DNA of 64,000 bases, taken from contig JAHBXB010000004.1 of assembly GCA_019636655.1 (NCBI GenBank), positions 186,001-250,000 of the forward strand, given 5' to 3'. A model generated the notes under the pieces. It saw only the letters and a list, made by a program, of their open reading frames with translations. It ran no database searches and was not told the origin of the DNA. The stretch's first letter is position 1. Each line of letters begins with the position of its first letter. The stretch is from Phycisphaeraceae bacterium. GTDB taxonomy: Bacteria > Planctomycetota > Phycisphaerae > Phycisphaerales > UBA1924. The position numbers and the translations under genes were made by a program. Positions 7,285-64,000 of the stretch are shown one piece after another.

Positions 7285-7318
7285 AGGGCCGATGGTAGCG
7301 AGCCGGACCGCCGACGGG

Positions 7319-8008: not shown

Positions 8009-8098
8009 TGGCAACTCCCCGCGGCTCCGCCGCGCGTTCCCTTCGCCCGGCGGAAGCGCCGGGCCAGACTCATTATCGGCGCCCCGGAGCGGCGGCGA

Positions 8099-9040: not shown

Positions 9041-9123
9041 GGGACGGGAGTTTACGCCGCACCAGCGGACGGGGCGGGCCGCTCGACCCCGCCTCGGTTC
9101 TCACCTGTCCGCCGCCGGCACCG

Positions 9124-10980
<1,857 letters not shown>

Positions 10981-11023
10981 GGGGCCAATGGTAGTGGCTC
11001 GGGAATCCCAGCCGCCGCGTGCC

Positions 11024-11776: not shown

Positions 11777-11814
11777 GGTTCGCCCTCCGGCCGCGGATCC
11801 CGCGGCGGTCCCAC

Positions 11815-12540
11815 TCACCTCCGGCGACGCAGCGAGACCGCCCCCGCCGCGACCAGCCCGAGCCCCGCCGCCGTCGGCGCCGGCACCGTGTACGTGATCG
11901 ACAGCGCCGGCCTCACCTCGGTCACCGCGCTCTCCCGCGAATCGAACCGCATCGCCGAGGTGTTGACGGTCTCATCCCCCCGCACCATCAGCCCGAAGTT
12001 CCCAGTCGGGAGATCCAGCCACGACTGCACGAGCGAGGTCAGCAAGGGTGACGACCACGTGTACACGCCGGTCTCCGTGATGGTCGTGCTCGCGAGGGCC
12101 CCCGCCGCGAAATCCCCGCCCGGCGTGGACCAGGTCGACGTGTTGTAGAACCGGTGGAGCCACGTCGCGTCCCCGGTTGTCGCCGGCGCCCCGCTCCCCG
12201 AACCGTTGCTCGTCCCCTCGCCCCAGGAGTTCAGCACCTGGTGCAGTGTCACCTCGGCCGAGGTCGCGTTGGTCTGCGTCATGCTCAGCGTCAGCGTCGC
12301 TCCGGTGATGGTCGATCCGCTCGGGATCCCCATCCCCGGCCCCACCGGGAACAGCAGCAGCCCGCGCCGGATCGACCCCTGGCTGTTTCGCCCCGCGAAG
12401 AAGCTCGTCCCCGCGCCGTTGCTGACCGAGCCCGCGGCGTCCTGGTAGAGGGTGTTGTCCGCCAGCGGCGCCGTCACGACGACATCCGCATAGGCCGACA
12501 TCGCCGCCGCCAGAACCACGCCCGCACAGATCGTCTTCAT
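11815..12540 (-). CDS. Exported DNRLRE-type protein with PEP-CTERM-like tail (second of three)
   Basis: This 241-residue paralogue of the flanking genes starts at the ATG at 12540, with GGGAG 5 bases upstream and a signal peptide cut near SAYA. It repeats the family pattern: DNTLYQD, RRGLLLFPV, WGEG, WLHRFYNTSTW and MRFDSRES. The tail is VPAPTAAGLGLVAAGAV plus four Arg, the same PEP-CTERM-like class as its downstream neighbour. Shared motifs and adjacent placement indicate tandem duplication followed by divergence. Confidence 0.82.
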   Translation of the reverse strand: MKTICAGVVLAAAMSAYADVVVTAPLADNTLYQDAAGSVSNGAGTSFFAGRNSQGSIRRGLLLFPVGPGMGIPSGSTITGATLTLSMTQTNATSAEVTLHQVLNSWGEGTSNGSGSGAPATTGDATWLHRFYNTSTWSTPGGDFAAGALASTTITETGVYTWSSPLLTSLVQSWLDLPTGNFGLMVRGDETVNTSAMRFDSRESAVTEVRPALSITYTVPAPTAAGLGLVAAGAVSLRRRR

Positions 12541-12590
12541 GGCCGCTCCCTTCGAACACAACGGAAACGCAAGCCGGATACCTGCCTCCC

Positions 12591-13469
12591 CTAGCACCCC
12601 CCGCTCAGCGCTGCCAGCCACGTCGTCACGAACACCGCGATATCCGCCGGTTGCACCGCTCCGTTACCGTCAAAGTCGGCGGCAAGGTTCCCCGCGATCA
12701 GGCTGTTGTTCCAGTCCGTCACAAACACCGACACATCCGCCGGCTCGATCAGCCCGTTGCCGTCGCGGTCCGCCGGACACGGCGGCGCGGGCGGGGTGTA
12801 CACCACGATCAACTGCGGCCGGAACGACTCGGTCGGGTTCTCCCGCGAGTCGAACCGCTTGGCCGTGTGCGTCGTGGCCTCGTTGCCGATGAGCACCCAC
12901 CCGAAGTTCGTCGCCGGGTTTGCGAGCCACCCCTGCACATCCGCCACCAGCATCGCCGTCGAACTCCAGGTGTACGACGCGATCGTCGAAGCGATCGACC
13001 GGCTCGCGCTCGCGGTCACGACCTTGTCCGACCCAGGCGTGGTCCACATGACACTCGGCCAGAACTTCGTCTCCCATGTCGCTTCCCCCGGGGTCGCGTT
13101 CGCCCCGGCCCCCTCGTTGCCGTCGGGGTTCGAGGTCCCCTCGCCCCAGTCCGACGTCAGGCGGTACACCGAGATCGTCTGGTTCCCCGTGCTCGTCCGC
13201 GACAGGTGCAGCTTCAACTGCACGCTCGTCACCGTCGACCCCGCCGGGATCGCCGAGGCGACGTCGAACATCAGCAGCGCCCGCCGCCGCTCGCCGCCGC
13301 TGCTGTTGCGACCCACGAAGAAGAACTCGCCCGCCCCGTTCGCCACCCCAGGCGTCTCGTGGATCGTGACGTCCCGCTTGCACGAGATCGTCGCCGTGTC
13401 CGCCGCCGCCGCGGCCGCCATCCCCGCCGCCGCCGTCATCCCCACGATCGCGAATCGCACTGGAACCAT
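12591..13469 (-). CDS. Exported DNRLRE-type protein with C-terminal two-loop dockerin (first of three)
   Basis: The 292-residue first gene of the tandem set starts at the ATG at 13469, with a strong AAGGAGG 8 bases upstream. It has the same DNRLRE body as its neighbours (RRALLMFDVASAIPAG, WGEG, KRFDSREN). In place of the Arg-rich sorting tail it ends in two calcium-loop repeats, DRDGNGLIEPADVSVF and DFDGNGAVQPADIAVF, each followed by a Trp. A Cys just before the first loop (PPCPAD) and a terminal Gly-Gly-Cys could form a staple. This C-terminus matches what is sometimes called a GC-type dockerin anchor in Phycisphaerae. Confidence 0.85.
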   Translation of the reverse strand: MVPVRFAIVGMTAAAGMAAAAAADTATISCKRDVTIHETPGVANGAGEFFFVGRNSSGGERRRALLMFDVASAIPAGSTVTSVQLKLHLSRTSTGNQTISVYRLTSDWGEGTSNPDGNEGAGANATPGEATWETKFWPSVMWTTPGSDKVVTASASRSIASTIASYTWSSTAMLVADVQGWLANPATNFGWVLIGNEATTHTAKRFDSRENPTESFRPQLIVVYTPPAPPCPADRDGNGLIEPADVSVFVTDWNNSLIAGNLAADFDGNGAVQPADIAVFVTTWLAALSGGC

Positions 13470-13818
13470 CGCCGTCGCCTCCTTGGGCCGGGCTGGCGAG
13501 TCGATCGCCTCCGGCATCGCCCCGCCGCGCGATCGCGCCGGGTCGACCTCGTCTCTCTACCCCGGATACACATGGACGCGTGGTGGCCGAAGAATGGCCA
13601 GAAAGCAGGCCGCCACGCCCAGAATCTACACTCTACGTGGAAACCGGCCGGAAACCAGCCGCCCCCTCTATCCGAGCCCCCGAACCACGGGGTTCCACGC
13701 ACCCGGTGGCCGAAACTTCCCCATTTCCCCCCCCAAGGCCCCGCGCCCGGCGCCCGCACCCACCTGCCGCCCCGTCCCACCTCCCAAACCCCGCCCCTGC
13801 CTCCCCAAAGCCCCCAAA
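13470..13818. other. Intergenic region upstream of the DNRLRE operon
   Basis: No supported gene lies in these 349 bases. The left part should carry the promoter and leader of the leftward DNRLRE operon. The right part, from about 13720, is very C-rich with runs of seven or more C's next to the tRNA-Arg 3' end. Reading frames across it are low-complexity Pro/Ala/Arg and do not look coding. I see no convincing terminator hairpin or promoter hexamers. Confidence 0.5.
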
Positions 13819-13892
13819 CGCGCCCGGAGGGATTCGAACCCCCAACCCTCGGTTCCGAAGACCGATGCTCTATCCAGTTGAGCTACGGGCGC
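13819..13892 (-). tRNA. tRNA-Arg (anticodon TCG)
   Basis: Reads leftwards with 5' end at 13892. The acceptor stem GCGCCCG pairs perfectly with CGGGCGC. The D arm has GCTC/GAGC, the anticodon stem TCGGT/ACCGA encloses the loop CTTCGGA with anticodon TCG (codon CGA), and the T arm carries GGTTCGAAT. The discriminator is G and no CCA is encoded. It stands alone between the DNRLRE operon and the unknown gene at 14045. Confidence 0.95.
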
Positions 13893-14044
13893 AACCACAA
13901 GACCGGGACAGCCAGCTCCGCCACCCAGCCGGATGCTAAGACCGACACCTAGCCGATGTCAGGCTTTGAGGCTGGAGCGTGGCGAAGCTTAGCGCCATAG
14001 CGCCGCGTTTGAAACTCGCCAGGCGACGTCGTGATCGATGGCTT

Positions 14045-15838
14045 CTACTTTTTCTTCGGTCGCTTCCTGCCGCCCCCGGTACTGCGGGCCTGCCGGGTCG
14101 TACGAGCGCGTAGTGGCTTGACGCGGAGATACTGCTCGGCGGTGATCTCCTGCGTCAACGTCGGTTGGGCACGTCGAATCCACTCGCCGGATTGTGTGAG
14201 CGACTTCCGATAAGCGTCAACCAAGGCACGTCCACCCGTCTGGCTGCCGCGGAGCATCGTCTTTACCACCAGTTCATCCGACATCTGCTCGTTCGGTGAT
14301 GACGGGCCATCTTGAACCTTGTACGCGAGTTCAAGAAGCGTGCGGGTGATGCCCCCGAGGACATAGATCTCGACCAGGTCCCACGGCGGGCACGTGAGGC
14401 ACGGGTTTGGGGGCGGGTCTGGAATGAGGTCCGGCAGTTCGAATAACTGATGCAAATCGGGCACAAGGAAGTCGCGGATCCAGGAACTGATGAGACACTG
14501 TCCCGCATTGCGGCCGATCGCATCCTTTGCCGTCTGGCCGAGTTCCCAGATCGGCATGCGGGAGCTGAGTCGCTCCACCGCCGGGTAGCGCAGTATCCAT
14601 TTCCACATCGACCGGGCCAGCATGCACTTCTGTCGTTGCGGTGGCGCCAGCCACAACGCCACGTTCACGAAGTAGTCGTCGAGTCGTCTAAGCGATTGCT
14701 GCCCAGCGGGCGTATCCAGGAAGCCCCTGCTCTTCGGGTTGTTCGCGGGAAGCCCCGGCCGTCCGATGAGATTCACATCGAACCAGTGGTGCCATGTCGA
14801 GTCCACGACGACGCGTCCGATGCCCGCGGCCTGACCGTCGTACGCACCGATGACGCCGAACTCTTTGCCGTTCGCGGCGCCCTTGTTCGTGTCACTTGAG
14901 TTGGTATGGTCGCTTTGAACTCTCGCCCACGCGATGATCTGCGGCTTGATCTGACTTGGTCCGGAACCCGGGTACTCCGGCGCATGGAACGTTCCGACGT
15001 CGAACGGGGCATTGAGGTTGATGAGGGATGCGTCGATCACATCCCCCTCGTGCGGATGGTCTGGCAAGATATCGATCACGCCCGTGCGACCGCAGAGAAC
15101 CGGGTGCGGCATCGCCCGCCATTGCCAGGGAACAAACGACCGCAGCCCGTACTTCCGAACGCGGAGCGGCATCGGGATGTCGTCGGATTCGTCGTCGAAG
15201 GTATAGGTGCTGTCATGACCCTTTAGCAACGTATCGTGCCGGCTAGAGCCCGTGGGAGGAGGTACTCCCTGGGCTGCGGTCCAGCGACGCATAGAGCGAA
15301 CTCGGGGGATCCGCGAGCACAGACTTGCACCAAGATCCGCGTGGTCGCCGGTGGCAAAGACCCCTCCACCCTGATCCATCCACCGCGCGAGCACCTCCAA
15401 CTCGGCGTCGCTGAGTTGCTGCAACCCTGCCTCTTCAGAGCGGGCTCCGAAAAGCCACACCTGGTCGTAGTCGTTGATGTTGAATCCGTCCTGACTGAAC
15501 CGGAAGTTCTCATAGTGCGGGCCATACCGCGACCATGCCACCGGTTCCGTCGCGGCATTGGGCTTGGCGGTATCAGTCTGGCGGTGGGCCCGGGTGACCT
15601 GAAACCGCACCCAGCCTCGCTCATCGTTCCGAAGTGCATCAAGAACGTGGCTCAGGCCAAAGTACGAGTGGTTGAAGGAGACGTTGAGGGTGCTTCCTGG
15701 ATAGCCGTCAACGACCATCAGGATCCGTACCGTGCATGGGCGCAGCCAGGGAAACGGAAAGAGTTCGGCGAGCTCGATCTTCTCGATATGCAGCTTCTCT
15801 CGGCCAAAGTCCCACAGGACGTCTCGTTCGAATGGCAT
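14045..15838 (-). CDS. Large protein of unknown function, possible GATase/ThuA-like N-terminal fold
   Basis: A 597-residue product that I cannot assign. I chose the ATG at 15838 because CGGAG lies 7 bases upstream; an ATG at 15865 lacks one. Residues from about 40 to 330 alternate hydrophobic strands and helices, with YDQVWLFGARS, ARWMDQGGGVFATGDHADLG and later GRVVVDSTWHHWFDVNL. That pattern resembles flavodoxin-like GATase1/ThuA-type proteins, but no Cys-His-Glu triad is obvious. The C-terminal third has a Cys pair (CLTCPPWD) and ends in a very basic tail. There is no signal peptide. The gene is less GC-rich than its neighbours and stands alone after an AT-rich promoter region, so horizontal acquisition is plausible. 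Confidence 0.72.
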   Translation of the reverse strand: MPFERDVLWDFGREKLHIEKIELAELFPFPWLRPCTVRILMVVDGYPGSTLNVSFNHSYFGLSHVLDALRNDERGWVRFQVTRAHRQTDTAKPNAATEPVAWSRYGPHYENFRFSQDGFNINDYDQVWLFGARSEEAGLQQLSDAELEVLARWMDQGGGVFATGDHADLGASLCSRIPRVRSMRRWTAAQGVPPPTGSSRHDTLLKGHDSTYTFDDESDDIPMPLRVRKYGLRSFVPWQWRAMPHPVLCGRTGVIDILPDHPHEGDVIDASLINLNAPFDVGTFHAPEYPGSGPSQIKPQIIAWARVQSDHTNSSDTNKGAANGKEFGVIGAYDGQAAGIGRVVVDSTWHHWFDVNLIGRPGLPANNPKSRGFLDTPAGQQSLRRLDDYFVNVALWLAPPQRQKCMLARSMWKWILRYPAVERLSSRMPIWELGQTAKDAIGRNAGQCLISSWIRDFLVPDLHQLFELPDLIPDPPPNPCLTCPPWDLVEIYVLGGITRTLLELAYKVQDGPSSPNEQMSDELVVKTMLRGSQTGGRALVDAYRKSLTQSGEWIRRAQPTLTQEITAEQYLRVKPLRARTTRQARSTGGGRKRPKKK

Positions 15839-20364: not shown

Positions 20365-21228
20365 ATGGCACAGCACCGGACCACGTTCTCCGACGACTTC
20401 CGCCGCTTCTTCAGCCGCGGGCTCGCCATCGTTCTGCCCACCATCCTCACCCTCTGGCTCCTCTTCCAGGCCTACGCCTTCGTCGACGCCCAGGTCGCCC
20501 AGCCCATCAACCGCGGCCTGCAATCGATCGTCCTGTTGGTCGTCCGCCAGGGCTCGGCCTCCCGCGCCCTCCCCGATTGGTTCCAGGTCACCAAGGAAGA
20601 GTTGGACCAGTACCGCGACGCCGTCTCCCGCCAGGGGCCCGCGGCGGTCATGGCCCTCGCCGCACGCTCCGAGTCCCAGGTCCGCGAGGACGTCCGCGCC
20701 CTGCACCTCCAGGAGTACTGGAACTCCCGCTGGTATTTCCGCCTCATCGGCCTCTGCTTCGCCGTCGTCCTGATCTACCTCACCGGCGTCCTCCTCGGCG
20801 GCCTCGTCGGCCGGCGCATCTACGCCGCCATCGAGCACTGGTTCTCTCGCCTCCCCATCGTCCGGTCCGTCTACCCGCACGTGAAGCAACTCGTCGACCT
20901 CATCTTCGGCGCCAAGCACGCCGCCTTCCGCCAGGTCGTGCTCGTCGAGTTCCCTGGCCCCGGCCTCTGGTCGCTCGCCTTCGTCACCGCCCCGGGCCTC
21001 AAGACCGTGAGCGACAACGCCGACGACGACCTGCTCACCATCTTCGTTCCCACAACCCCCACCCCGTTCACCGGCTTCACCATTGTCGTCCGCCGCGCCC
21101 AGACCCGCGATGCCGGCATGACCGTCGACGAGGCCATCCGCTTCATGCTCACCGCCGGCGTGCTGCTCCCCACCACCTCGCCCGAACTCGTCCCCCGGTC
21201 CACGCTTCCCTCGACAACCCCCCGGTGA
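20365..21228 (+). CDS. DUF502 family membrane protein
   Basis: A 287-residue protein with an N-terminal transmembrane helix (GLAIVLPTILTLWLLFQAYAF), a second around residues 125-150 (FAVVLIYLTGVLLGGLVG), and the conserved block LPIVRSVYPHVKQLVDLIFG characteristic of DUF502. A C-terminal cytoplasmic domain includes PTTPTPFTGFTIVV, also typical. The family is widespread and its function is unknown. It begins 48 bases after pckA; no clear Shine-Dalgarno precedes the ATG. Confidence 0.9.
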   Translation: MAQHRTTFSDDFRRFFSRGLAIVLPTILTLWLLFQAYAFVDAQVAQPINRGLQSIVLLVVRQGSASRALPDWFQVTKEELDQYRDAVSRQGPAAVMALAARSESQVREDVRALHLQEYWNSRWYFRLIGLCFAVVLIYLTGVLLGGLVGRRIYAAIEHWFSRLPIVRSVYPHVKQLVDLIFGAKHAAFRQVVLVEFPGPGLWSLAFVTAPGLKTVSDNADDDLLTIFVPTTPTPFTGFTIVVRRAQTRDAGMTVDEAIRFMLTAGVLLPTTSPELVPRSTLPSTTPR

Positions 21229-21380
21229 ATCCACCGGGAGATGCCCATCCACATGCCTAGCAGCGCTCGCAGACGCCCGAGGCGCGGCCTACTCTCGCTC
21301 CCGGCGGTCCACGCACCGGGTGCGTTCGATCACCTTCTGTTCGTCATCGTTCTCGCAAGGAAGCGCTGAAAGGAAGTCGC

Positions 21381-21680
21381 ATGCGCATCGACGTTATCGG
21401 AAAGCATCTCGAGGTCACCGATGCCATCTCCGCCTACGCCCAGTCCAAGGCCGCCAAGCTCACCAAGTTCCTCGACCTCACCCAACTCGTGACCGTCTAC
21501 GTCGAGCAGAACAAGCACGGCGAGTTCCACGTCGAAGTCGTCGTTGACGTCGAGAAGCACGACGACCTCGTCGCCAACGCCGCCGCCGAGGACCTCTACG
21601 CGGCGATCGACCTCTGCGTCGACAAGGCCGCCCGCCAGGTGACCGATTTCAAGGAACGCCTCAAGCAGGGCAAACGCTGA
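21381..21680 (+). CDS. hpf: Ribosome hibernation-promoting factor / RaiA family
   Basis: A 99-residue short-form HPF/RaiA protein that binds the 30S decoding region and stabilises inactive ribosomes. It opens with MRIDVIGKHLEVTDAI, continues with beta strands typical of S30AE, and has the helix DLYAAIDLCVDKAARQV. AAGGAAG lies 6 bases before the ATG. Being short form, it should need a partner or act like E. coli HPF/YfiA. It heads hpf-ptsN-ptsH, part of the arrangement found downstream of rpoN in many bacteria, but rpoN is not here. Confidence 0.93.
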   Translation: MRIDVIGKHLEVTDAISAYAQSKAAKLTKFLDLTQLVTVYVEQNKHGEFHVEVVVDVEKHDDLVANAAAEDLYAAIDLCVDKAARQVTDFKERLKQGKR

Positions 21681-21775
21681 CTGACGGGCGCCTCCAGTCC
21701 GGGGCGCCACAGGCTGTGTCTGGTATGAACCGGGCGGGGGCTCGTTCGGGGTCGGGGCAGCGGAGCATCGCGTCG

Positions 21776-22252
21776 ATGAAACTCAGCACGATCGTCACGC
21801 CCACCGCCATCGTTCCCCGCCTCTCCTCCGGTGATCGCGACACCGTCATCGCCGAACTCCTCGACGCCCTCATCAACGGCGGCGCCGCCGACCCCGCTCT
21901 GCGCGCCGAACTGCTCACCCGCGTCCTCCGCCGCGAACAACTCGGCTCCACAGGCTTCGGCAAGGGCGTCGCCGTCCCCCACGTCAAGCACAAGGCCGTC
22001 AAGTCCATGACCGCCGCCATCGGCCTCTCGCCCACCGGCGTCGACTTCAACGCCCTCGACCGCCAGCCCGTCTACTCCGTCTTCCTCCTGCTGAGCCCCG
22101 AGGACCACCCGGAGGAGCACCTCCAGGCCATGGAGGTCATCTTCAAGAACCTCAGCAAAGAGACCTTCCGCCGCTTCCTCCGCCAGGCCGCCACCGTCGA
22201 CGAGGTCGTCGCCTTGCTCGACGAGGCCGACGGGCAGCAGCTCACCGCCTGA
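21776..22252 (+). CDS. ptsN: PTS IIA component, nitrogen-regulatory/fructose type
   Basis: A 158-residue EIIA domain of the fructose/mannitol-Ntr class. The phosphorylatable His is in GFGKGVAVPHVKHK. The start at 21776 (MKLSTIV) has GGAG 10 bases upstream; a longer frame from 21716 is not supported. It sits 95 bases after hpf and 75 before ptsH, and no PTS permease (IIB/IIC) is visible in the window, so a regulatory role as in PTS-Ntr is more likely than sugar uptake. Confidence 0.9.
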   Translation: MKLSTIVTPTAIVPRLSSGDRDTVIAELLDALINGGAADPALRAELLTRVLRREQLGSTGFGKGVAVPHVKHKAVKSMTAAIGLSPTGVDFNALDRQPVYSVFLLLSPEDHPEEHLQAMEVIFKNLSKETFRRFLRQAATVDEVVALLDEADGQQLTA

Positions 22253-22327
22253 AGTCCCCGCACCAACCCGCGGCCGCCACGGCCGCGCGGGGTCCCCCGC
22301 CGCACCGGGCACGGAGCAGATTGGCAG

Positions 22328-22609
22328 ATGGCAGCCTTGAGCGTCAAAGTCACGATCGTGAACCGCCTGGGCCTCCACGCCCGGCCCGCGATGTGCTTCG
22401 TCGACGCCGCCAGCGCCTTCACCTGCTCCGTCACCGTCTCCCGCCCCGGCCCCGGCGGGACCACCGTCGACGGCAAGTCCATCATGCAGATGATGATGCT
22501 CGCCGCCACCAAGGGCACCGAGCTCGACATCACCTGCGACGGCGACGACGCTCAGGCCGCCTGCGAACTGCTCAAGAAACTCGTCGAGAGCGGCTTCGAG
22601 GAGGAGTAG
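22328..22609 (+). CDS. ptsH: Phosphocarrier HPr/NPr family protein
   Basis: A 93-residue HPr domain. The active-site His is in NRLGLHARPAMCFV and the regulatory Ser is in DGKSIMQMMML. It would pass phosphate from enzyme I to the adjacent PTS IIA. Whether it acts as HPr or NPr cannot be decided; association with ptsN favours NPr. Its last 38 bases overlap the 3' end of the convergent DUF3052 gene. Confidence 0.93.
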   Translation: MAALSVKVTIVNRLGLHARPAMCFVDAASAFTCSVTVSRPGPGGTTVDGKSIMQMMMLAATKGTELDITCDGDDAQAACELLKKLVESGFEEE

Positions 22610-54858: not shown

Positions 54859-55401
54859 GTGAAGCGACGAGGTGTTCGACGCCCGCCTGCGGAGGAGGGC
54901 ACGGTCGTTGCGGTGCCGCTTCCGTCGTCCGGCGGGTATGGCATTGCCGTCGTGTCGAGGTGGGCGACGAAGGTGTTGTATGGCAGCCGCCGGATTCTGG
55001 GTTACGGTTTCGGGCCGCGGCTGCCCGAGCTCCCCCTTGCCGTGGAGATTGGCAGATTAGATCCGAGACATGCGAACATAGTCCTTGTAACCTATGATGA
55101 TGAGATAGCCTCTGGCAGCTGGAAGATCGTAGGCAAGGTGCAGGAGTTCAGCCGCGGCGAGTGGCCGATGCCGAGGTTTTCGTATTACCATGACACCCTC
55201 CGTCGGTGGCTGGAGATCCGACACGTCGAGGACACGTTAGACGAAGAGTTTGGAGAACGAAACACGATCACTATCGAAGATGCGCGATCGTGTGCCGATT
55301 ACGGCTTCAATACTCCCGGTGCGTTTGCCGGCAAGCTCGACCGAGCGATTTGCGAGGGCTGGCAGGGGAGACCGCCGGTGATGCTCTCGCAGGGACGATG
55401 A
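54859..55401 (+). CDS. Imm26-like immunity protein (copy 1)
   Basis: A 180-residue protein starting GTG 54859 (AGGAG 9 bases upstream). EEGTVVAVPLPSSGGYGIAVV and GKVQEFSRGEWPMPRFSYYH resemble immunity protein 26 of polymorphic toxin systems. It is a clear paralogue of 61733-62269: the shared skeleton includes YGFGPR, EIASG.W, GEWP.P.FSYYH, RRWL, CADY and GW.GRPP. No toxin gene is adjacent. It precedes the RND operon but shares nothing with it functionally that I can see. Confidence 0.7.
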   Translation: MKRRGVRRPPAEEGTVVAVPLPSSGGYGIAVVSRWATKVLYGSRRILGYGFGPRLPELPLAVEIGRLDPRHANIVLVTYDDEIASGSWKIVGKVQEFSRGEWPMPRFSYYHDTLRRWLEIRHVEDTLDEEFGERNTITIEDARSCADYGFNTPGAFAGKLDRAICEGWQGRPPVMLSQGR

Positions 55402-55532
55402 TGTGGGGTCGTGGCTCCCTGCGCCGCCCCAGGATCGCCGTGGGCCGCGGTCCGAGCGGCGGCGCTACCCTTGCCGGCATCGGCTCGCGGCACTCGATGG
55501 ATCAGAGTTGTTCCGGACGTGGAAGTCTGCCC

Positions 55533-56756
55533 ATGAGGAAGACATCAACAGGATCCGTTGTCAGGTCGGGCCTCGCCAGCGAATCGATGTGGCTCGCGGC
55601 AGTCCTGATCGCGCTCTCCGGGGTCACGGGCTGCAAGCCGCGGATGAACGAGTACAAGCCGCCGCCGCCGCCCGAGGTCACCGTGGCGCATCCCGTGCGA
55701 AAAACGGTCACCCGCTATCTGGACTACACCGGCACGACCGAGGCGTACGAGGTTGTCGAACTGCGGGCCCGTGTGCCGGGGTTCCTGGAAAAGGTGAGCT
55801 TCAAGCCCGGAGCGGAGGTCAAGAAGGGCGATTTGCTCTTCGTCATTGATCCCCGTGAGTACGAGGCCGAGGCCAGGAAGGCGGAGGCCGATGTCGCGGA
55901 CCGCGAGGCGGCGCTGCGCCTGGCCGAAGTCACGCTACATCGTGTCAACGTGGTGGACAAGGCGGCGGCGGGAACGCCGCAGGAGACCGACCAGGCTGTC
56001 GCCGACCGCGACAAGGCGAAGGCGCAGCTGGAGCTGGCCCGCGCGGCGCTGGCGAAGGCGCACCTGAACGTGGAGTTCACGCAGGTTCGGGCGCCCATCG
56101 ATGGCCGCATCACGAAGAACCTTGTCGATGTCGGGAACCTTGTCGGGGCCGGCGGGCAGCCGACGGCCCTCGCGGTGATCGAGAGCAACCGGCCGCTGTA
56201 CGTGTCGGTCGACGTCGGCGAGAGCGACGTCCTGCTCATCCGGCGGGCGCGGATGGCCCAGCAGCCGGATGCGGAGCCGGGCCAGGTCACCCCCGGCGAG
56301 TGGCGCCGCGTCGAGCTGGCAACAGCGGATTCGACGGAGTACAACGTTCACGGCCGCATCGACTATGTGGACCCTGCACTCAACGCGCAGTCGGGCACGC
56401 TCAGGGTGCGCTGCCGCTTCGAGAACGAGGACGGCGTCCTGCTGCCGGGTCTGTTCGTGCGGATGAGGCTGCTGCTGGATGAGGCCGAGCAGACGGTCGT
56501 TCCGGACATCGCCCTCCTGACCGACCAGTCCGGGCGATTCGCGTTCGTGGTCAACGACCAAGGCGTTGTCGAGGTTCGTCGGGTGAAGATCGGATCGCTC
56601 GATGGGGCGCTGCGCGTCGTCACGGAGGGGCTGAGCCCGACTGACCGGGTCATCGTCAACGGGCTGCAGCGGGCCCGCCCGGGGATCACCGTGACCGCGA
56701 AGGAACAGGACGCGGCAGCGCAAGACGCGCCGGCGGCCGACGCCGCGAACAAGTAG
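55533..56756 (+). CDS. RND efflux periplasmic adaptor (MexA/AcrA-like lipoprotein)
   Basis: A 407-residue membrane-fusion protein. Start ATG 55533 (GGAAG 7 bases upstream) and lipobox SGVTGC at Cys34. The lipoyl half-motif VELRARVPGFLEKVSFKPGAEVKKGDLLFVID and the second half with VRAPIDGRITKNLVDVGNLV bracket a helical hairpin; a beta-barrel domain follows. It bridges the inner-membrane pump at 56772 to an outer-membrane TolC. Operon with the pump (15-base gap). Confidence 0.94.
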   Translation: MRKTSTGSVVRSGLASESMWLAAVLIALSGVTGCKPRMNEYKPPPPPEVTVAHPVRKTVTRYLDYTGTTEAYEVVELRARVPGFLEKVSFKPGAEVKKGDLLFVIDPREYEAEARKAEADVADREAALRLAEVTLHRVNVVDKAAAGTPQETDQAVADRDKAKAQLELARAALAKAHLNVEFTQVRAPIDGRITKNLVDVGNLVGAGGQPTALAVIESNRPLYVSVDVGESDVLLIRRARMAQQPDAEPGQVTPGEWRRVELATADSTEYNVHGRIDYVDPALNAQSGTLRVRCRFENEDGVLLPGLFVRMRLLLDEAEQTVVPDIALLTDQSGRFAFVVNDQGVVEVRRVKIGSLDGALRVVTEGLSPTDRVIVNGLQRARPGITVTAKEQDAAAQDAPAADAANK

Positions 56757-56771
56757 AAAAGCACCCGACGC

Positions 56772-59700
56772 ATGTTCAGCCAGTTCTTCATCCGCCGGCC
56801 CATCGTCGCGTGCGTGATCGCGATTCTGATCATGATCGCCGGCGCGGTCTCGTTCCCGACGCTGCCGGTCGCCCAATATCCCGAGATTGCGCCCCCGATC
56901 ATCCGGGTGACGACGGTGTATCCCGGCGCGAGCGCCCAGGTCGTCGCCGACACGGTTGCCGCCCCGATCGAGCAGCAGGTCAACGGCGTTGACCGCATGA
57001 TCTACATGGAGAGCACGTCGGCCAGCGACGGCTCCTACACGCTTAACGTTTCGTTCGAGGTCGGCACGGACGTCGACATCGCCTCTGTGCTCGTGCAGAA
57101 CCGTGTGTCCATCGCCCTGGCGCAGCTGCCCGATGAGGTGCGCCGCCAGGGGGTGACGACGACCAAGGTCTCCACGAGCATCGTGTCGGTGCTCGCCCTG
57201 ACGCCGGTCGACCCGGCGGCCACTCCCGAGTACACCGACCTGTACCTTGCCAACTACCTGCTCATCAGCGTCAACGACCAGGTGAAACGCATCCCGGGCG
57301 TGGGCGATACGCTGATCCGTCCCGGCAAGGACTACGGCATGCGCATCTGGCTGGACCCGGACAAACTCCGGGGTCGTGCCCTGACCACCACGGATGTGCT
57401 GGGCGCCCTGCGGGAGCAGAACGTCCAGGTCGCCGCGGGCAACATCGGGCAGCCGCCGGTTCCGGAGGGGCAGGGATTCCAGTATTCCATCACGACCCTC
57501 GGCCGGCTGCAGACGCCCGAGCAGTTCGAGGACATCATCATCCGTGCCGACGGGAACCGCATCGTCAGGGTCAGGGACGTGGCCCGCGTGGAACTGGGCG
57601 CGAAGTCCTACGACACGCTCGGACGCGTCGATGGCGTCCCGTCGGCACTCATGGTGGTCTACCAGTCGCCGGGCGGCAACTCCGTGCAGGTCGCGGCGAG
57701 CCTGCGCGACCTGCTCGACCGCCTGTCGAAGGACCTTCCCAAGGGACTCGAGTTCCGCACGATCTACGACACTTCAGAGTTCGTGGCCTCGGCGATCGAC
57801 GAGGTGTACCGCACGATCTTCGAGGCCTCGGGCCTGGTCATCCTCGTGGTGCTCGTCTTCCTGGGGAGCGTCCGCTCCACGATCATTCCGATTGCAGCGA
57901 TTCCTGTGTCGCTCGTGGGGACCTTCTTCGCGATGAAGGTGTTCGGGTTCTCGCTCAATCTCCCGACGCTGTTTGGGCTGATCCTCGCCATCGGGATTGT
58001 CGTCGATGACGCCATCGTCGTCGTTGAGAACGTCGAGCGGAACCTCTCCGAGCATCACCTGCCGCCAAAGGAGGCGACGTCCCGTGCCATGCTTGAGGTG
58101 TTCGGCCCTGTCGTCGGCATCTCGCTCGTGCTCATGGCCGTGTTTCTGCCTACCGCCGCGCTGCCTGGCATCAGCGGTCAGCTCTACCGGCAGTTTGCGC
58201 TCACGATCGCGGCCAGCACGTTCTTCAGCGCCCTGTGCGCTCTCACGCTCAGCCCCGCGCTCTCCGGGGTGATCCTGCGGGAGCACCGGGCGGGGCAGAA
58301 GCACAACATCTTCAAGCGAACATTCGACCGCGTGTTCGACGTTGTGGCCGACCGGTACGCCAGGGCTATCCGGTTTGTCGTGCGCCCCTCCATGATCGGT
58401 GTATCGCTCGCGGCGTTCGCAGCGCTGGGTGCGCTCATCCTCTGGAGCCTGGCGCGCGTGCCCACGGGCTTCGTTCCCGACGAGGACAAGGGCCTCCTGA
58501 TCGCCGAAATCTGGATGCCCGACAGCGCCAGCCAGGAGCGCACCCTGAACGTCCTGAAGCGAGTCGAGCAGATCTTCGGGGAAACCGACGGTGTGGCCCA
58601 CCGCGGCGGGTTCCAGGGCTTTTCCCTCATCGCGGGCAACGGCTCCAACTACGGAGTTGTCTTCGCCGGCCTGAAGCCTTGGTCCTACCGCGTCCCCCGC
58701 CACCGCGACATGTACACGATGCTCGCCGAGGTGCGGCAGAAGTTCGCCCAGATCCAGGAGGGCACCGTCATCGCGTTCTACCGGCCCGCCGTCGACGGGA
58801 TCGGCAACGCTTCGGGGTTTGACCTGCGCCTGGAAGACCGCGCGGGCGTCGGGCGCCAGCAGATGCAGCAGTTCGTGCAGGAGTTCGTCAACGACGCCAA
58901 CACGCAGTCGAAACTGCGGCGGGTCTCCTCCCCGTACAAGGCCGCCGTCCCGCAGCTCATGGCCGACATCGACCGCGAGAAGTGCAAGAAGCTCGGCCTC
59001 TCGCTGGCCGATGTGTTCAGCACGCTGAGCGTCAACCTCGGCTCCGCGTATGTCAACGACTTCAACAAGTTCGGACGCACCTGGCAGGTGGACGTGCAGG
59101 CCGACAGCGCCTTCCGCTACCGGGCGGATCAGGTCAAGCTCCTCCAGGTGCGCAACGCCTCGGGTCAGATGATCCCTCTGAGCTCGCTCCTCAAGATCGA
59201 TGAATCGATGGGACCGGATCGGGTCATCCGGTACAACCTCTATCCCGCGGCGGCCGTCAATGGCGCTGGGGCCCCGGGCGTGAGCACGGGCGAGACCATG
59301 GCCGTAGTCGAGGACATGATCCGCCAGAAGGCGCCGCAGGGCATCGATTACGAATGGACGGCCCTGTCCTTCCAGGAGAGCCGCGCCGCTGGCACCGCGG
59401 GGCTGGTCTTTGTGCTTGCCCTGACGGTCGTGTACCTCATCCTCGCCGCGCTCTATGAGAGCTGGACGATTCCTCTGGCGGTCATCCTGTCCATTCCGCT
59501 GGCCGTCCTGGGCGCGATGCTGGGCTTGCTCTGGCGTGGCATGGACAACAACATCTACACGCAGGTCGGCCTCGTGCTCCTCGTCGGCCTGGGCGCCAAG
59601 AACGCGATCCTCATCGTCGAGTTCGCCAAGACCAACCGCGCCAACGGTCAGCCGATCATCGATTCGGTCGTCGAGGCGGCTCGGCAGCGGCTCCGGCCCA

Positions 59701-59924
59701 TCCTGATGACGGCCCTGGCGTTCATCCTGGGCGTGCTCCCGCTGGTGAACGCGACCGGCGCCGGCGCCGCCAGCCGCCAGGCCATCGGCACCGCCGTGTT
59801 CTTCGGCATGATCGGCAACACGTTCCTGGGCCTCGTCTTCACGCCGGTTCTGTACGTAGCAATCACCGCGGCATCCGAGTGGCTGTCCCGCCGGTTCCGC
59901 CGCGTGCAGCCCGTACCGGCCTAG
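56772..59924 (+). CDS. RND multidrug efflux permease (AcrB/HAE1-like)
   Basis: A 1050-residue inner-membrane RND pump. It starts MFSQFFIRRPIVACVIAILIMIAG, has the TM4 Asp pair in GIVVDDAIVVVENVERN, the pore-domain repeats and the late helix block QVGLVLLVGLGAKNAILIVEFAKT. Length is typical of HAE1 RND proteins. It should export hydrophobic or amphiphilic compounds by proton antiport. No TolC or regulator gene follows; the outer-membrane partner may be 30586-32412 or unlinked. Confidence 0.95.
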   Translation: MFSQFFIRRPIVACVIAILIMIAGAVSFPTLPVAQYPEIAPPIIRVTTVYPGASAQVVADTVAAPIEQQVNGVDRMIYMESTSASDGSYTLNVSFEVGTDVDIASVLVQNRVSIALAQLPDEVRRQGVTTTKVSTSIVSVLALTPVDPAATPEYTDLYLANYLLISVNDQVKRIPGVGDTLIRPGKDYGMRIWLDPDKLRGRALTTTDVLGALREQNVQVAAGNIGQPPVPEGQGFQYSITTLGRLQTPEQFEDIIIRADGNRIVRVRDVARVELGAKSYDTLGRVDGVPSALMVVYQSPGGNSVQVAASLRDLLDRLSKDLPKGLEFRTIYDTSEFVASAIDEVYRTIFEASGLVILVVLVFLGSVRSTIIPIAAIPVSLVGTFFAMKVFGFSLNLPTLFGLILAIGIVVDDAIVVVENVERNLSEHHLPPKEATSRAMLEVFGPVVGISLVLMAVFLPTAALPGISGQLYRQFALTIAASTFFSALCALTLSPALSGVILREHRAGQKHNIFKRTFDRVFDVVADRYARAIRFVVRPSMIGVSLAAFAALGALILWSLARVPTGFVPDEDKGLLIAEIWMPDSASQERTLNVLKRVEQIFGETDGVAHRGGFQGFSLIAGNGSNYGVVFAGLKPWSYRVPRHRDMYTMLAEVRQKFAQIQEGTVIAFYRPAVDGIGNASGFDLRLEDRAGVGRQQMQQFVQEFVNDANTQSKLRRVSSPYKAAVPQLMADIDREKCKKLGLSLADVFSTLSVNLGSAYVNDFNKFGRTWQVDVQADSAFRYRADQVKLLQVRNASGQMIPLSSLLKIDESMGPDRVIRYNLYPAAAVNGAGAPGVSTGETMAVVEDMIRQKAPQGIDYEWTALSFQESRAAGTAGLVFVLALTVVYLILAALYESWTIPLAVILSIPLAVLGAMLGLLWRGMDNNIYTQVGLVLLVGLGAKNAILIVEFAKTNRANGQPIIDSVVEAARQRLRPILMTALAFILGVLPLVNATGAGAASRQAIGTAVFFGMIGNTFLGLVFTPVLYVAITAASEWLSRRFRRVQPVPA

Positions 59925-60136
59925 TCCAGCCGCGCGGCGGCATGCCGACTGATCTGTAGGACCCCTGACAATGACTGTTGGCCCGCCCACATGGGTGGCG
60001 CCGGTCCCGGGAGAGGCACACAGCCAAACAGCGGCATCCCTACTGTGGCTGGCAGTGGTACTCTCAGGGTTGGTCTCAGCGGGCTCTTCCGAGGAGACCC
60101 GAAAGCTACAGTGGCTTTTCTTCGGCAGGTGACGGC

Positions 60137-60571
60137 ATGAATTCGATTGAATGGAGGGCAAGAACCGGTGGTATTCGGCAAACATGCATCGTTGCAGCCT
60201 TCTTGTGGACTATCGCATTTGCCCTAGGAATCACAGAATACGGTCGACGGTGGCCGAATCTGTATGTTCAGGCGGCGTATCAAGTACTGGCGGCATCAAT
60301 AGTGCTGGCATTGATGTATTTGTCATGGCGCATGCTGATCAGAAGAATAACGTTCGTGAGTATCTGTGGTAATCAAATGATTGTTCGTTCTATGATAAAC
60401 GAATACGTGCGGCTACGCACGGAGTGCGCACGGATTCAGCGCGATGGCAAGGGAGCTCTGCTGCTAGAGTGGCGGGATGGAAGGAGGCTCTTGGTTCGAG
60501 AGCACGAATTCAGCGGCGGTGGGCATTTGTGCGACGCAATCAAGCAATGGGCAGCGGGTGACGATTGGTAG
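60137..60571 (+). CDS. Hypothetical two-helix membrane protein
   Basis: A 144-residue product from ATG 60137. Two helices (CIVAAFLWTIAFALGI and AYQVLAASIVLALMYLSW) are followed by a soluble stretch with alternating strands, RRITFVSICGNQMIVRS and LLLEWRDGRRLLVREH, resembling a PH-like domain. Base composition is much lower in G+C (about 45% in a sampled line) than the rest. No family is recognised; by position it may belong to the neighbouring toxin-immunity locus. Confidence 0.55.
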   Translation: MNSIEWRARTGGIRQTCIVAAFLWTIAFALGITEYGRRWPNLYVQAAYQVLAASIVLALMYLSWRMLIRRITFVSICGNQMIVRSMINEYVRLRTECARIQRDGKGALLLEWRDGRRLLVREHEFSGGGHLCDAIKQWAAGDDW

Positions 60572-60950
60572 GGGCGGTCTCGCCCGGGTCACGGAATGTG
60601 GAGCGACGCGGGCCTCGCCTCCGCCGCCGATTCGCGCGTCCCCGCCACAGGCCAGCCAGTTTCCTGGAATCTGACAATAGAGTACTGGCAATGAACACAG
60701 CGCATTATTCATTATATGTTCCCGTTCCGGGATCTGGGCACCGGGGCTGCGAGCGCAATCTATACGCAAGCAACGGAGTGGTTGTCGACCGGGCGATCCG
60801 TAATCTGTTTCGGGGCGACAACAGATATGGTATTCTGCCTCAATGGATCGCTGCAACGCCTCGGCTTCCTGTTATTCAATGCGGCGAGGGCTTGCAACTA
60901 TCCGACACCCCATTGCCACCGGGGTACAAATCTCCGGAGAGAGGGTCGTG
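60572..60950. other. Intergenic, possible decayed coding region
   Basis: No gene is supported in these 379 bases. Short frames starting at 60691 and 60716 are open but lack ribosome sites and do not resemble any family. The G+C content varies sharply. I read it as non-coding or decayed sequence upstream of the immunity-like gene at 60951, whose ribosome site lies at the right edge. Confidence 0.4.
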
Positions 60951-61316
60951 ATGCGCGCTCGCCCTTGGCCCCCCATCGACGACCTCATGTTTCTTATTGG
61001 GTATCAGCTCACCGCGGTCCGTGTGTCGTCATGGCCCGTAGACTTGTACTTGTCCAAACCGCCAGATGTGGTAATCAGCCTGCGATCGCGCGTTCGCGTC
61101 ACGCTTGCGGATGGTAGCGTTCTCGAACCAACACACTTGCCAGATGCCGGGATAGCACTCATCGGATTCATTGGCGGCACGATCATCGCGGTGGAGCAGT
61201 TCAATCCGTACGGCATCACGATAACACTCGACGTCGGAGCGATAACAATGGAATGCACAAACGAGCAGTTCGAGTCGTTTGGCATCGTTGGAGATGGCCG
61301 CGAGATATATGTATAG
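60951..61316 (+). CDS. DUF6188-like / immunity-like protein
   Basis: A 121-residue protein (GGAGAG upstream of ATG 60951). It starts with LIGYQLTAVRVSSWPVDLYLS and ends with FIGGTIIAVEQFNPYGITITLDV and FESFGIVGDGREIYV, a pattern I associate with DUF6188-type immunity proteins of polymorphic toxin loci (two similar beta-rich halves). The assignment is from memory. It lies 416 bases before the second Imm26-like gene. Confidence 0.5.
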   Translation: MRARPWPPIDDLMFLIGYQLTAVRVSSWPVDLYLSKPPDVVISLRSRVRVTLADGSVLEPTHLPDAGIALIGFIGGTIIAVEQFNPYGITITLDVGAITMECTNEQFESFGIVGDGREIYV

Positions 61317-61732: not shown

Positions 61733-62269
61733 TTGAGAGTTAGAAAAAAGGCGTGCCATGACGCAGAGCCGGGTGCAATTGTCGCCATTCCGTTGCCCGT
61801 TGGTGGCGGGTATGGTTTGGGGGTTGTTGCAAGGAGAATGCCGAGGGTTCGGCCTGGGAATCGAACTACGCTCTTGTACGGATTCGGCCCGCGGTATCTT
61901 GAGATGCCTCGTAACGATCAGATCGCCACATTGAGTGCCAATAATGCGACGCTCGTAGTGCTTACTGGCGACAATCAAATCGCATCTGGGGATTGGCCGC
62001 TGGCGGGTAGTATTAAGGAGTTTTTGCCTGGTGAGTGGCCGGTGCCGTTGTTCTCGTACTACCACCCCACTTTTCGTCGATGGCTACTCGTTCCGCATGA
62101 CGAGCACACCTTGCAGGAAGATTGTTATCGAGAGAGGATCAGGATCACAGCTGAAGAGGCGTCTCAGTGTGCTGATTATTCTTTGTATGGAACGGAGGCA
62201 TTCGCAATTAGATTAGAACAGGGCATTATTGAGGGGTGGCATGGGCGCCCGCCCATTGTAGATGAATAG
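61733..62269 (+). CDS. Imm26-like immunity protein (copy 2)
   Basis: A 178-residue paralogue of 54859-55401. It starts at TTG 61733 (AGG 8 bases upstream), aligned with the start of copy 1. The shared skeleton includes PLPxxGGYG, YGFGPR, QIASGDWPLAG, GEWPVPLFSYYH, RRWL, CADYSLYGTEAF and EGWHGRPP. Around 45-50% identity by eye. G+C content is much lower than copy 1, suggesting separate arrival or different ages of residence. It precedes the RHS fragment by about 20 bases. Confidence 0.7.
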   Translation: MRVRKKACHDAEPGAIVAIPLPVGGGYGLGVVARRMPRVRPGNRTTLLYGFGPRYLEMPRNDQIATLSANNATLVVLTGDNQIASGDWPLAGSIKEFLPGEWPVPLFSYYHPTFRRWLLVPHDEHTLQEDCYRERIRITAEEASQCADYSLYGTEAFAIRLEQGIIEGWHGRPPIVDE

Positions 62270-62289: not shown

Positions 62290-62720
62290 CAGCTGACGTT
62301 CGACTCCGACGGCAAGGTGGATAGCGGGACACCTGGCGTGTGGGTGCTGCACCACACGTACGACGCGCTGGGCCGGTTGATCCTCTCGCAGAAGCCGTGG
62401 GACGATGAGGGCAAGATCGTCCACGTCGAGCACTACTACTACGACGGGGTCCGCCGGGTCCAGGAGATCGTGCTGGCGCCGGTGCCGGGCCTGAGCCCGA
62501 AGGAGATCACCGACCCCGAACTGGTGCTGCAGCAGCAGCGGACAGAGCGGGAGTACGTCTGGTCGGCCGCGGCGGACGGCGCCGGCGAGGCCGGGGTGGA
62601 CGACCTGGTCTGCCAGATCACCGGGCCGGCGTCGCCGGGCGGGGGGATGAGCGGAGGCGGCGGGGGCGTGGGGACGCCGCTGGCGAACAACCACCCGGTG
62701 TGGACGGTGACGGACCCGGC
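62290..62720 (+). pseudogene. RHS/YD-repeat protein fragment
   Basis: An open stretch of about 143 codons with no plausible start. LHHTYDALGRLILSQ and HYYYDGVRRVQEIV are RHS/YD repeats; the following QQQRTEREYVWS and NHPVWTVTDPATG also match the RHS C-terminal repeat region. It ends where the tRNA-Ile gene begins, without the conserved core terminus or any toxin tip. It is therefore a remnant truncated at both ends of a large polymorphic toxin gene. Confidence 0.75.
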
Positions 62721-62728
62721 CACAGGAA

Positions 62729-62802
62729 TGGGCCTGGCTGGACTCGAACCAGCGACCTCACGCTTATCAAGCGTGCGCTCTAACCAACTGAGCTACAAGC
62801 CC
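62729..62802 (-). tRNA. tRNA-Ile (anticodon GAT)
   Basis: Reads leftwards with 5' end at 62802. The acceptor GGGCTTG pairs with CAGGCCC (one G-T pair). The D arm is GCTC/GAGC, the anticodon stem CACGC/GCGTG encloses TTGATAA with anticodon GAT, and the T arm has GGTTCGAGT. Discriminator A; no CCA encoded. Its 3' end faces the RHS fragment, consistent with use as an integration site. Confidence 0.95.
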
Positions 62803-63119
62803 GCGTCCGGCGGGAAGCCACCGGCTTTGGGTCGGAAGTATACGCCACACAGGCCACAAGTGAACTGCCACGACGCTCTAGTACAGGGCTGCGGAGGACC
62901 GGTTGGGTCCGTGGGAGGTGGGGCGGGTCAAGGAGGTGCCAGGGAGGGGGGGTACGACCAGACGGCGGGGTGGTCCGATACCCCCGGCCGACGCTGCACA
63001 AGTCTGTGGACCCGCCGGAACAGGGAGTCCCGCCGTGCCGATAAATGGTGACGAGACCGGATCGGTGGAAGACGCCACAACGAGACCGGGGCCGCGGCCG
63101 GACGCGGGCGGAGTGGTTG
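62803..63119. other. Intergenic upstream of the HD-GYP gene
   Basis: No gene is supported in these 317 bases. The middle is G-rich (runs of seven G's near 62947) and the right end carries the ribosome site GGAG of the HD-GYP gene. Candidate promoter hexamers are not obvious. Confidence 0.45.
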
Positions 63120-64000
63120 ATGCTCAGAGTGCTCACTGCGAATGCTCGCCCGGGAATGGCGCTGGCCCAGCCGGTGCTCCACCCGAAGCAGCTCGGGCAT
63201 GTTCTGCTCAAGCCCAACGCGGTGCTGGACCAGGCGGCGCTGGACAAGCTGCGCGAATACCGAGTTCCGGTGCTTTGGATCCGGTATCCGGCTCTGGACT
63301 TTCTGGCACGGTACGTGAGCCCGCAGATCGCCGCGGAGCACGCCAAACTGACGTCGACGCTGGCAACCGGGTTCGAGGAAGCGGTGAAGGAGTCGCACGG
63401 CCCGATGGACTTTGCGCCCTTTGCGGATGCGGTGCACGGGATGCTGCAGAAACTGATCGAGTCTCCCGGCGCGGCGCTGTTCCTGCAGGACATGATCGAC
63501 CACGACCGGCCGCTGCTGGCCCACAGCAGCAACGTCTGCTTCATTTCGCTGCTGCTGGGTCTGCGGCTGGATGGGTACCTCGTCGACCAGCGCACGCTGA
63601 TCTCACCGGCGCGGGCGAAGCGGACCGAGAGCCTGGGTCTTGGGGCGCTGCTGCACGATGTGGGCATGCTCAGGCTGTCGCCCGAGGCGCAGGCGAGGTG
63701 GATCGCAACGCAGGACCTGTCGGATCCGGACGTGCGCAAGCACGTGACGCTGGGGTTCGACCTGCTGCGGGGGCAGGTGCCGCCGACGGCGGCTGCGGTG
63801 GCGTTGCACCACCACCAGCGGTACGACGGGACGGGGTTCCCGCAGATCCGCCGGTTGGATGGGACGGCGGCGCCGCTCGCGGGACGGCAGATTCACGTCT
63901 TTGCGAGGATCGTGGCCGTGGCGGAGACATTCAGCCGCCTGCGCTCGCCACCGGGGGCGGCGATGCTGTCGGTACCTGCCGTGCGGGTGCTGCGGCGGAT
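63120..64000 (+). CDS. HD-GYP domain protein (3' end outside window)
   Basis: The frame runs from ATG 63120 (GGAG 7 bases upstream) to the right edge, 293 codons. HD residues sit at 179-180 in GALLHDVGML, followed by HHHQRYDGTGFPQI at about 230-243 carrying the GYP-equivalent motif. These are cyclic di-GMP phosphodiesterase features. The later motif usually containing ADxYDA reads VAETFSRL, with Glu in place of a metal-region Asp, so activity may be changed. An N-terminal domain of about 170 residues precedes. Function: probable c-di-GMP hydrolysis or sensing. Confidence 0.82.
   Translation, partial: MLRVLTANARPGMALAQPVLHPKQLGHVLLKPNAVLDQAALDKLREYRVPVLWIRYPALDFLARYVSPQIAAEHAKLTSTLATGFEEAVKESHGPMDFAPFADAVHGMLQKLIESPGAALFLQDMIDHDRPLLAHSSNVCFISLLLGLRLDGYLVDQRTLISPARAKRTESLGLGALLHDVGMLRLSPEAQARWIATQDLSDPDVRKHVTLGFDLLRGQVPPTAAAVALHHHQRYDGTGFPQIRRLDGTAAPLAGRQIHVFARIVAVAETFSRLRSPPGAAMLSVPAVRVLRR

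Follow-up and report, generated by a model that had tools for sequence, protein, structure and literature searches.

Probable Rhs remnant abutting the 3' end of tRNA-Ile(GAT), a tyrosine-integrase site in relatives, in a Phycisphaeraceae genome

Orphan rhs-CT fragments accompanied by immunity genes have been described for Salmonella Rhs in the portion of Koskiniemi et al. (2014, PMC3967940) on which we draw here, and the relevant part of Zhang et al. (2012, PMC3482391) lists Imm26 for planctomycetes and describes poly-immunity loci. The locus analyzed in the present study resembles the orphan rhs-CT/rhsI modules, as presented in that portion of the former source, in that a displaced Rhs core fragment lies near an immunity gene, but it differs from them in that the locus lacks both a toxin tip and a main rhs gene, the immunity gene is located before the fragment, and the arrangement is known from sequence alone. 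Similarly, it shares with the poly-immunity or immunity-array loci, as treated in the corresponding part of the latter source, the placement of an Imm26 gene next to other small genes on the same strand, whereas here an RND efflux operon is situated between the Imm26 genes and the other genes are without a known immunity family. A further comparison is provided by the integrative elements of two relatives, G034 and G037, which involve the same tRNA and the same 3' end and resemble our locus in the position of its likely junction, at most 5 bp from the att core; in contrast to these elements, the genome under study harbors neither an integrase nor an island-side att copy at this locus, the only copy found being located on the opposite side.

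The genome under study (G000) comprises 3.66 Mb in 8 contigs, and the stretch that was analyzed, referred to as the window, spans 64,000 nt (C4:186001-250000). The comparison set consisted of 41 genomes including G000, which is the sole member of its genus in that set. The tRNA-Ile loci of 38 of the 40 relatives were examined (G011 gave no match at the limit used and G039 was left out), and several of these loci, such as those of G001, G038 and G040, are shortened by contig ends. A literature search by title found no paper on this Rhs/tRNA-Ile locus. The assignments DUF502, Imm26, HD, integrase, VgrG-type domains, SUKH, Imm11, Tox-REase-9, DAC and RND were made by family search, and AsmA, LOG, CaCA, PEPCK, HPF, PtsIIA and HPr are names which we presume from the look of the sequences. 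The features on which the analysis relies are the following, in window coordinates.

20365 to 22609, forward strand: DUF502, HPF, PtsIIA and HPr genes (PF04367 for DUF502; the other names are presumed from sequence appearance)
54859 to 55401, forward strand: second Imm26 gene (PF15428, E = 4.2e-7; 50% identity to the first by BLASTP)
55206 to 59924, forward strand: RND efflux pair by NCBIfam, consisting of an adaptor (frame 55206 to 56756, with the family match starting near residue 130) and a permease (56772 to 59924)
60137 to 60571, forward strand: ORF of unknown family in the low-GC stretch, starting at an ATG inside a longer frame (59978 to 60571); sub-threshold NCBIfam match only, no Pfam match
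60843 to 61316, forward strand: ORF within the low-GC stretch, unassigned by Pfam and NCBIfam
61733 to 62269, forward strand: Imm26 immunity-type gene (PF15428, E = 2.6e-9)
62290 to 62721, forward strand: Rhs core fragment of 144 codons, broken at both ends (homology, codon composition and tail motif)
62722 to 62728: junction, 7 bp between the likely Rhs end and the tRNA
62726 to 62748, reverse strand: att-like core made up of TTC and the last 20 nt of the tRNA; C4:280659-280681 matches it at 22 of 23 nt
62729 to 62802, reverse strand: intact tRNA-Ile(GAT) (ARAGORN and Rfam)
63045 to 64000, forward strand: HD-domain gene (PF13487), across the tRNA from the Rhs fragment and kept with the next genes in relatives

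The Rhs nature of the stretch from 62290 to 62727, as proposed in the preliminary description, was borne out by its matches to long Rhs-type frames. Rhs-type genes that match it are present in 7 of the 41 genomes, G000 included. The match within G000, which is the only other protein match in that genome, is a 2930-aa open frame on contig C6 (E = 9e-11), and the matches elsewhere reside in G002 (E = 2.2e-12), G026 (E = 2.6e-12), G017, G006 and G004, in addition to a weak match in G011 (E = 8.6e-4) which carries one internal stop. Searches of Pfam and NCBIfam returned no family match for the fragment, tblastn of the plasmid collection with the fragment as the query returned no match, and no relative was found among viral contigs.

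Gapped alignment with seven other Rhs-type frames begins between about residues 2 and 19 of the fragment and continues through residue 110 (..VDDLVCQI, position 62619), past which a glycine-rich insert follows and automatic alignments disagree on the tail. Rhs coding was carried on to position 62721 because of the prevalence of codons with G or C at the third position (33 of the 34 codons up to 62721, versus 104 of the 110 preceding codons) and because of the tail motif HPVWTVTDPA, the final 34 codons being assigned from codon composition and this short motif only. The motif was compared with the WxxxD site that is conserved among intact Rhs proteins, a site which was first chosen by eye and then ranked against 240 windows; the motif came top of the 240 windows in three of six proteins and ranked 3, 4 and 29 in the remaining three, and whole-fragment automatic alignments fail to put it at this site. 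From 62722 the codons read ACA GGA ATG, after which the tRNA starts, and the 3 bp adjoining the tRNA, which read TTC on its strand, form part of the shared att-like core. The likely Rhs end at 62721 corresponds to tRNA position +8 and lies at most 5 bp from the outer edge of that core.

The abutment of the Rhs fragment and the tRNA-Ile 3' end is real, being evident from ARAGORN, Rfam and the matches to Rhs frames. The position of the Rhs end, which had been put at a distance of about 8 bases from the tRNA, is likely rather than firm, since the codon composition and the motif reach 62721 while the gapped alignments stop at 62619. The accompanying statement that the frame is lost at this point proved wrong, as the frame continues across the antisense strand of the tRNA and meets its first stop, a TGA, at 63049 to 63051. 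At gathering thresholds, Rfam detected three tRNAs in the window and nothing else. The possibility that tRNA-Ile is located within a broken rRNA operon was rejected, as Rfam detected only tRNAs in 20 tRNA-Ile loci (approximately 3 kb each, that of G000 included); the sole 23S match of the genome is on C6.

Immediately upstream of the fragment, the stop codon of the first Imm26 gene (62269) is positioned at a distance of 20 bp, the immunity gene preceding the fragment instead of standing behind it. Both Imm26 genes pass the Pfam gathering cut-off (37.8 and 30.6 bits versus 23.3) and are predicted, by this family match, to encode immunity proteins. The ORF at 60843 to 61316 may be a further immunity gene, judging only from its position and GC content, and the same may apply to the ORF at 60137 to 60571, whose product looks membrane-spanning by eye. 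GC content is 0.52 to 0.59 in 10 of 11 windows at 60.0 to 62.4 kb, and 0.60 to 0.74 in nearly all others between 50 and 64 kb. GC content at third codon positions is 0.54 to 0.64 in the immunity-like genes (0.54 in the Imm26 gene at 61733), versus 0.95 in the Rhs fragment, 0.90 in the RND genes and 0.86 in the HD gene; such composition mosaics are typical of Rhs arrays. The RND efflux pair, which is of host-like GC content, separates the two 50%-identical Imm26 paralogues.

Two further Rhs scraps lie apart from any tRNA. On contig C6 of G000, the main rhs gene (6682 to 15315) is followed by two ORFs without a Pfam family and then by a second Rhs scrap of this genome (C6:16955-17236), for which a 295-nt alignment is 92% identical to the core of the main rhs gene; no tRNA is present in C6:1-30000. 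Contig 30 of G017 (7556 to 11137 of the locus) carries SUKH and Imm11 genes, an Rhs scrap with an unassigned tip, an Imm26 gene and a Tox-REase-9 ORF, and no tRNA was found in 19 kb of this contig. Because Rhs scraps behind immunity-type genes occur without a tRNA in both cases, integration is unnecessary to explain the Rhs end, and the similarity of these tRNA-free layouts to the locus under study suggests that the fragment is best read as part of a decayed orphan-Rhs array. The fragment is without the N-terminal part of an Rhs protein, as is characteristic of orphan modules. No toxin tip is present behind the Rhs core, where coding stops by 62721 and is followed by antisense-tRNA and intergenic sequence, and no main rhs gene was found in the locus, 98 kb of C4 containing only this Rhs piece. 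In the absence of both from the stretch of C4 that was searched, the fragment represents a remnant at best.

We consider it probable that the Rhs fragment is a dead, displaced core piece in which a decayed orphan-Rhs array ends, and that it came to abut tRNA-Ile by rearrangement. The remains of the array that are still visible would be the Imm26 gene and the other low-GC genes at approximately 60.1 to 62.27 kb. Growth of such arrays, as described for Salmonella Rhs and as we infer for this locus, would involve the recombination of new core-tip-immunity cassettes into the main rhs gene, with old cassettes staying downstream. The unit behind Imm26 would have lost both the N-terminal side and the toxin tip, and a chromosomal rearrangement at the tRNA 3' end is presumed to have brought the truncated Rhs end against tRNA-Ile. 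Counting against the orphan-array reading are the two presumed immunity genes and the two C6 ORFs that are without a family, the identity of only 37 to 44% between the fragment and the other Rhs gene of G000, on C6, and the lack of a close relative, the closest identity of the HD gene being 51% among the searched genomes and at most 46% in a wider scan of contigs, in which the nearest records were Phycisphaerales and other Planctomycetota MAGs.

Comparison with the relatives revealed that G000 differs from many of them both upstream and downstream of tRNA-Ile. In 11 of the 38 relatives, at least two of the DUF502-HPF-PtsIIA-HPr genes are located within 3 kb after tRNA-Ile and on the same strand (DUF502 itself in 9); the set is inverted in G010 and is located 5.5 kb from tRNA-Ile in G016. 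The corresponding operon of G000 is found 40 kb from tRNA-Ile, in the opposite relative orientation and behind a PEPCK-like gene. On the other side, the HD gene and its next gene are kept together in 8 of 13 relatives' loci (L043 to L055 and L100, with the short L047 left out). Some HD-domain match is present in all 41 genomes, many of these being to other HD genes. A tRNA-Ile gene was absent from the flanks of the relatives' HD gene in every locus searched, that is, in 19 loci, in 13 longer loci and in 27 named loci (27 of 33 were used, L147 to L152 being left out as partial matches from outside Planctomycetota). In 7 of 14 loci of relatives, the HD gene is preceded by a block which in G000 resides on contig C2 (73% identity). 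A conserved arrangement with intact synteny, which the preliminary description had named as the outcome that would speak against an integration junction, was absent from the relatives' loci examined. The nearest approach is that of G035, in which a 28%-identical HD-domain gene is located 1.5 to 2.7 kb upstream of tRNA-Ile on the strand of the tRNA; in G007, an HD-domain gene is located 3.8 kb downstream of tRNA-Ile. The Rhs/tRNA juncture most likely marks the breakpoint of a rearrangement, next to a tRNA end which integrases use in relatives.

With regard to the recombination that produced the juncture, a non-site-specific inversion, deletion or translocation beside tRNA-Ile is a serious candidate which, in our estimation, falls somewhat short of being probable; its breakpoint would have fallen just outside the tRNA by chance or because breaks within the tRNA are not tolerated. 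Such an event is consistent with synteny that differs on both sides (the HD upstream block being on C2 and the DUF502/HPF operon being displaced and inverted), with the C6 scrap, which is likewise truncated without a tRNA, and with the lack of an att repeat on the island side. It sits less well with a likely break only a few base pairs from the edge of an att core that is proven in relatives, and with the copy of that core at C4:280661, detailed below, which suggests that core recombination has touched G000. Its simplest form, a single inversion between tRNA-Ile and the DUF502 operon, was rejected, as the remaining part of the Rhs gene would be expected beside the PEPCK-like gene, where it is absent and only 48 bp separate the genes.

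The alternative put forward in the preliminary description is that of an integration junction. In such a case, an element bearing Rhs and immunity genes would have been inserted at the tRNA-Ile 3' end via a tyrosine integrase, the integrase and the far att site being lost or moved at a later point. The premise that integrases insert at the 3' ends of tRNA genes holds for tRNA-Ile in G009, G034 and G037 (3 of the 38 relatives), which represent three families of the order, and in two of these att repeats are present; the tRNA-Ile(GAT) 3' end is, therefore, a genuine and recurrent tyrosine-integrase site in this order. The integrase of G009 (PF00589) is encoded immediately downstream of tRNA-Ile and reads towards it, and its homologues at the same tRNA end share 49% identity in G034 and 45% in G037; antisense-tRNA matches of the G009 query at the tRNA itself (16 of 38 loci) were excluded from this count. 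In G034 (core from -21 to +1), the tRNA 3' end recurs as a 22/22-nt copy 6.6 kb downstream, and a 22/23-nt copy is located 39.2 kb downstream in G037 (core from -20 to +3), with a shorter copy at 41.4 kb. The same scan found no att repeat in G009, whose contig ends after 3.4 kb. The att-like core of G000 has the extent of the G037 core and deviates by at most 2 nt from that of G034. In the island DNA searched (at least 41 kb in G037 and G034, and 3.4 kb in G009), the sole sign of Rhs or Imm26 was a weak Rhs match in G034 (25%), which lies 53 to 55 kb from the tRNA and beyond the att repeat.

Two further relatives carry other genes of note near tRNA-Ile. In G023 (contig C8), a VgrG-like gene with Phage_GPD, Gp5_trimer_C and Phage_base_V domains begins 1.65 kb downstream of tRNA-Ile and is followed by an ORF which we take, from its look, to encode a PAAR-type effector; no att repeat was found within 8.9 kb of the tRNA in this genome. 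In G015 (contig C125), a Terminase-like ORF (Terminase_6C, just under the cut-off) is located 2.2 to 3.6 kb downstream. A terminator-like hairpin within 120 nt of the tRNA is present in 16 of the 38 relatives, versus 14 of 760 random stretches. No such hairpin was found within 600 nt in G000, nor within 120 nt in the three integrase-bearing genomes. As the hairpin is missing in twenty-two relatives, its absence from G000 is weak evidence when taken alone.

Within G000, no PF00589 match was found on contig C4, the six matches of the genome being located on C1 and C3, and the integrase frames of the relatives matched 98 kb of C4 at the tRNA itself only. One of the genome's own tyrosine integrases (C3:253801-254678) adjoins the 3' end of tRNA-Met; this pair proved of no use as a control, as no direct repeat of at least 22 nt was found in 10.7 kb. 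No att copy was detected on the island side in 94 kb of C4, where the best other matches were tRNA-His and chance-level words, and the exact-match control over the same 94 kb gave a longest other match to the tRNA end of 11 nt, below the random median of 12. A single match with three mismatches at 63151, on the 5' side, is at chance level (1.09 expected). The scan that revealed the repeats of G034 and G037 likewise gave none on the G000 island side. Within the window, the island side thus indeed lacks the direct repeat that had not been seen by eye.

Across the genome, the 25-nt tRNA 3' end (including 1 flanking nt) has no second match with up to 3 mismatches. The scan with a 22-nt pattern at the same tolerance detected tRNA-Ile, tRNA-Leu, tRNA-Tyr and a non-tRNA site at C4:280661, and the reversed control pattern had no match. 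This lone 22/23-nt core copy (C4:280659-280681; window coordinate 94659, outside the window), which is not a tRNA gene, spans tRNA positions -20 to +3, as in G037, with 1.1e-5 such copies expected per genome from base composition. Oriented like the tRNA, it lies on the 5' side at a distance of 31.9 kb and is 3.7 kb from the contig end. Its surroundings include a DDE transposase piece, an alpha/beta hydrolase gene and a somewhat lower GC content (0.57 to 0.65), and the conserved HD operon lies between it and tRNA-Ile, as does a DAC-domain gene. A simple insertion would place the copy on the other side. The anticipated repeat of the tRNA end was, accordingly, not detected on the island side, and the one partial non-tRNA copy lies on the opposite side.

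Taken together, integration at the tRNA-Ile end appears possible but doubtful. In its favor are the use of this end by integrases in relatives, the displacement of the DUF502/HPF operon, the proximity of the likely Rhs end to the core edge, the C4:280661 copy and the missing hairpin, a trait shared with the three integrase-bearing genomes; opposed to it are the lack of an integrase on C4, the lack of an island-side core copy, the position of the single copy on the tRNA 5' side with intervening genes, and the islands of the relatives, which, the weak G034 match aside, are without Rhs or Imm26. It is unlikely, in our view, that the tRNA-Ile(GAT) 3' end serves as a shared exchange point of the order at which tyrosine-integrase elements bring and drop toxin and immunity cargo, with the C4:280661 copy as a leftover; the cargo that could be cited comprises the Rhs/Imm26 remains of G000, the VgrG-type gene of G023 and the integrase islands of G009, G034 and G037. 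That the frame from 62317 to 63051 is a living gene, translated through the tRNA antisense as an Rhs-derived protein, is highly improbable. Although the frame is open for 244 codons, its tRNA portion is an antisense-tRNA reading (GLEPATS..), of a kind similar to that which falsely lengthened the integrase matches at 16 of 38 loci, and no Pfam or NCBIfam family matches.

The preferred reading, that of a decayed orphan-Rhs array whose tail was brought against tRNA-Ile by rearrangement, amounts to ordinary debris at a recombining site and involves no new system. The locus shows that, in a group of environmental planctomycetes, immunity-type genes can be followed by Rhs debris. In addition, att repeats document that one tRNA-Ile end has repeatedly served as a landing site, in no fewer than three families of the order. 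This tRNA-Ile end is, therefore, a concrete place in which to seek mobile elements in these genomes.
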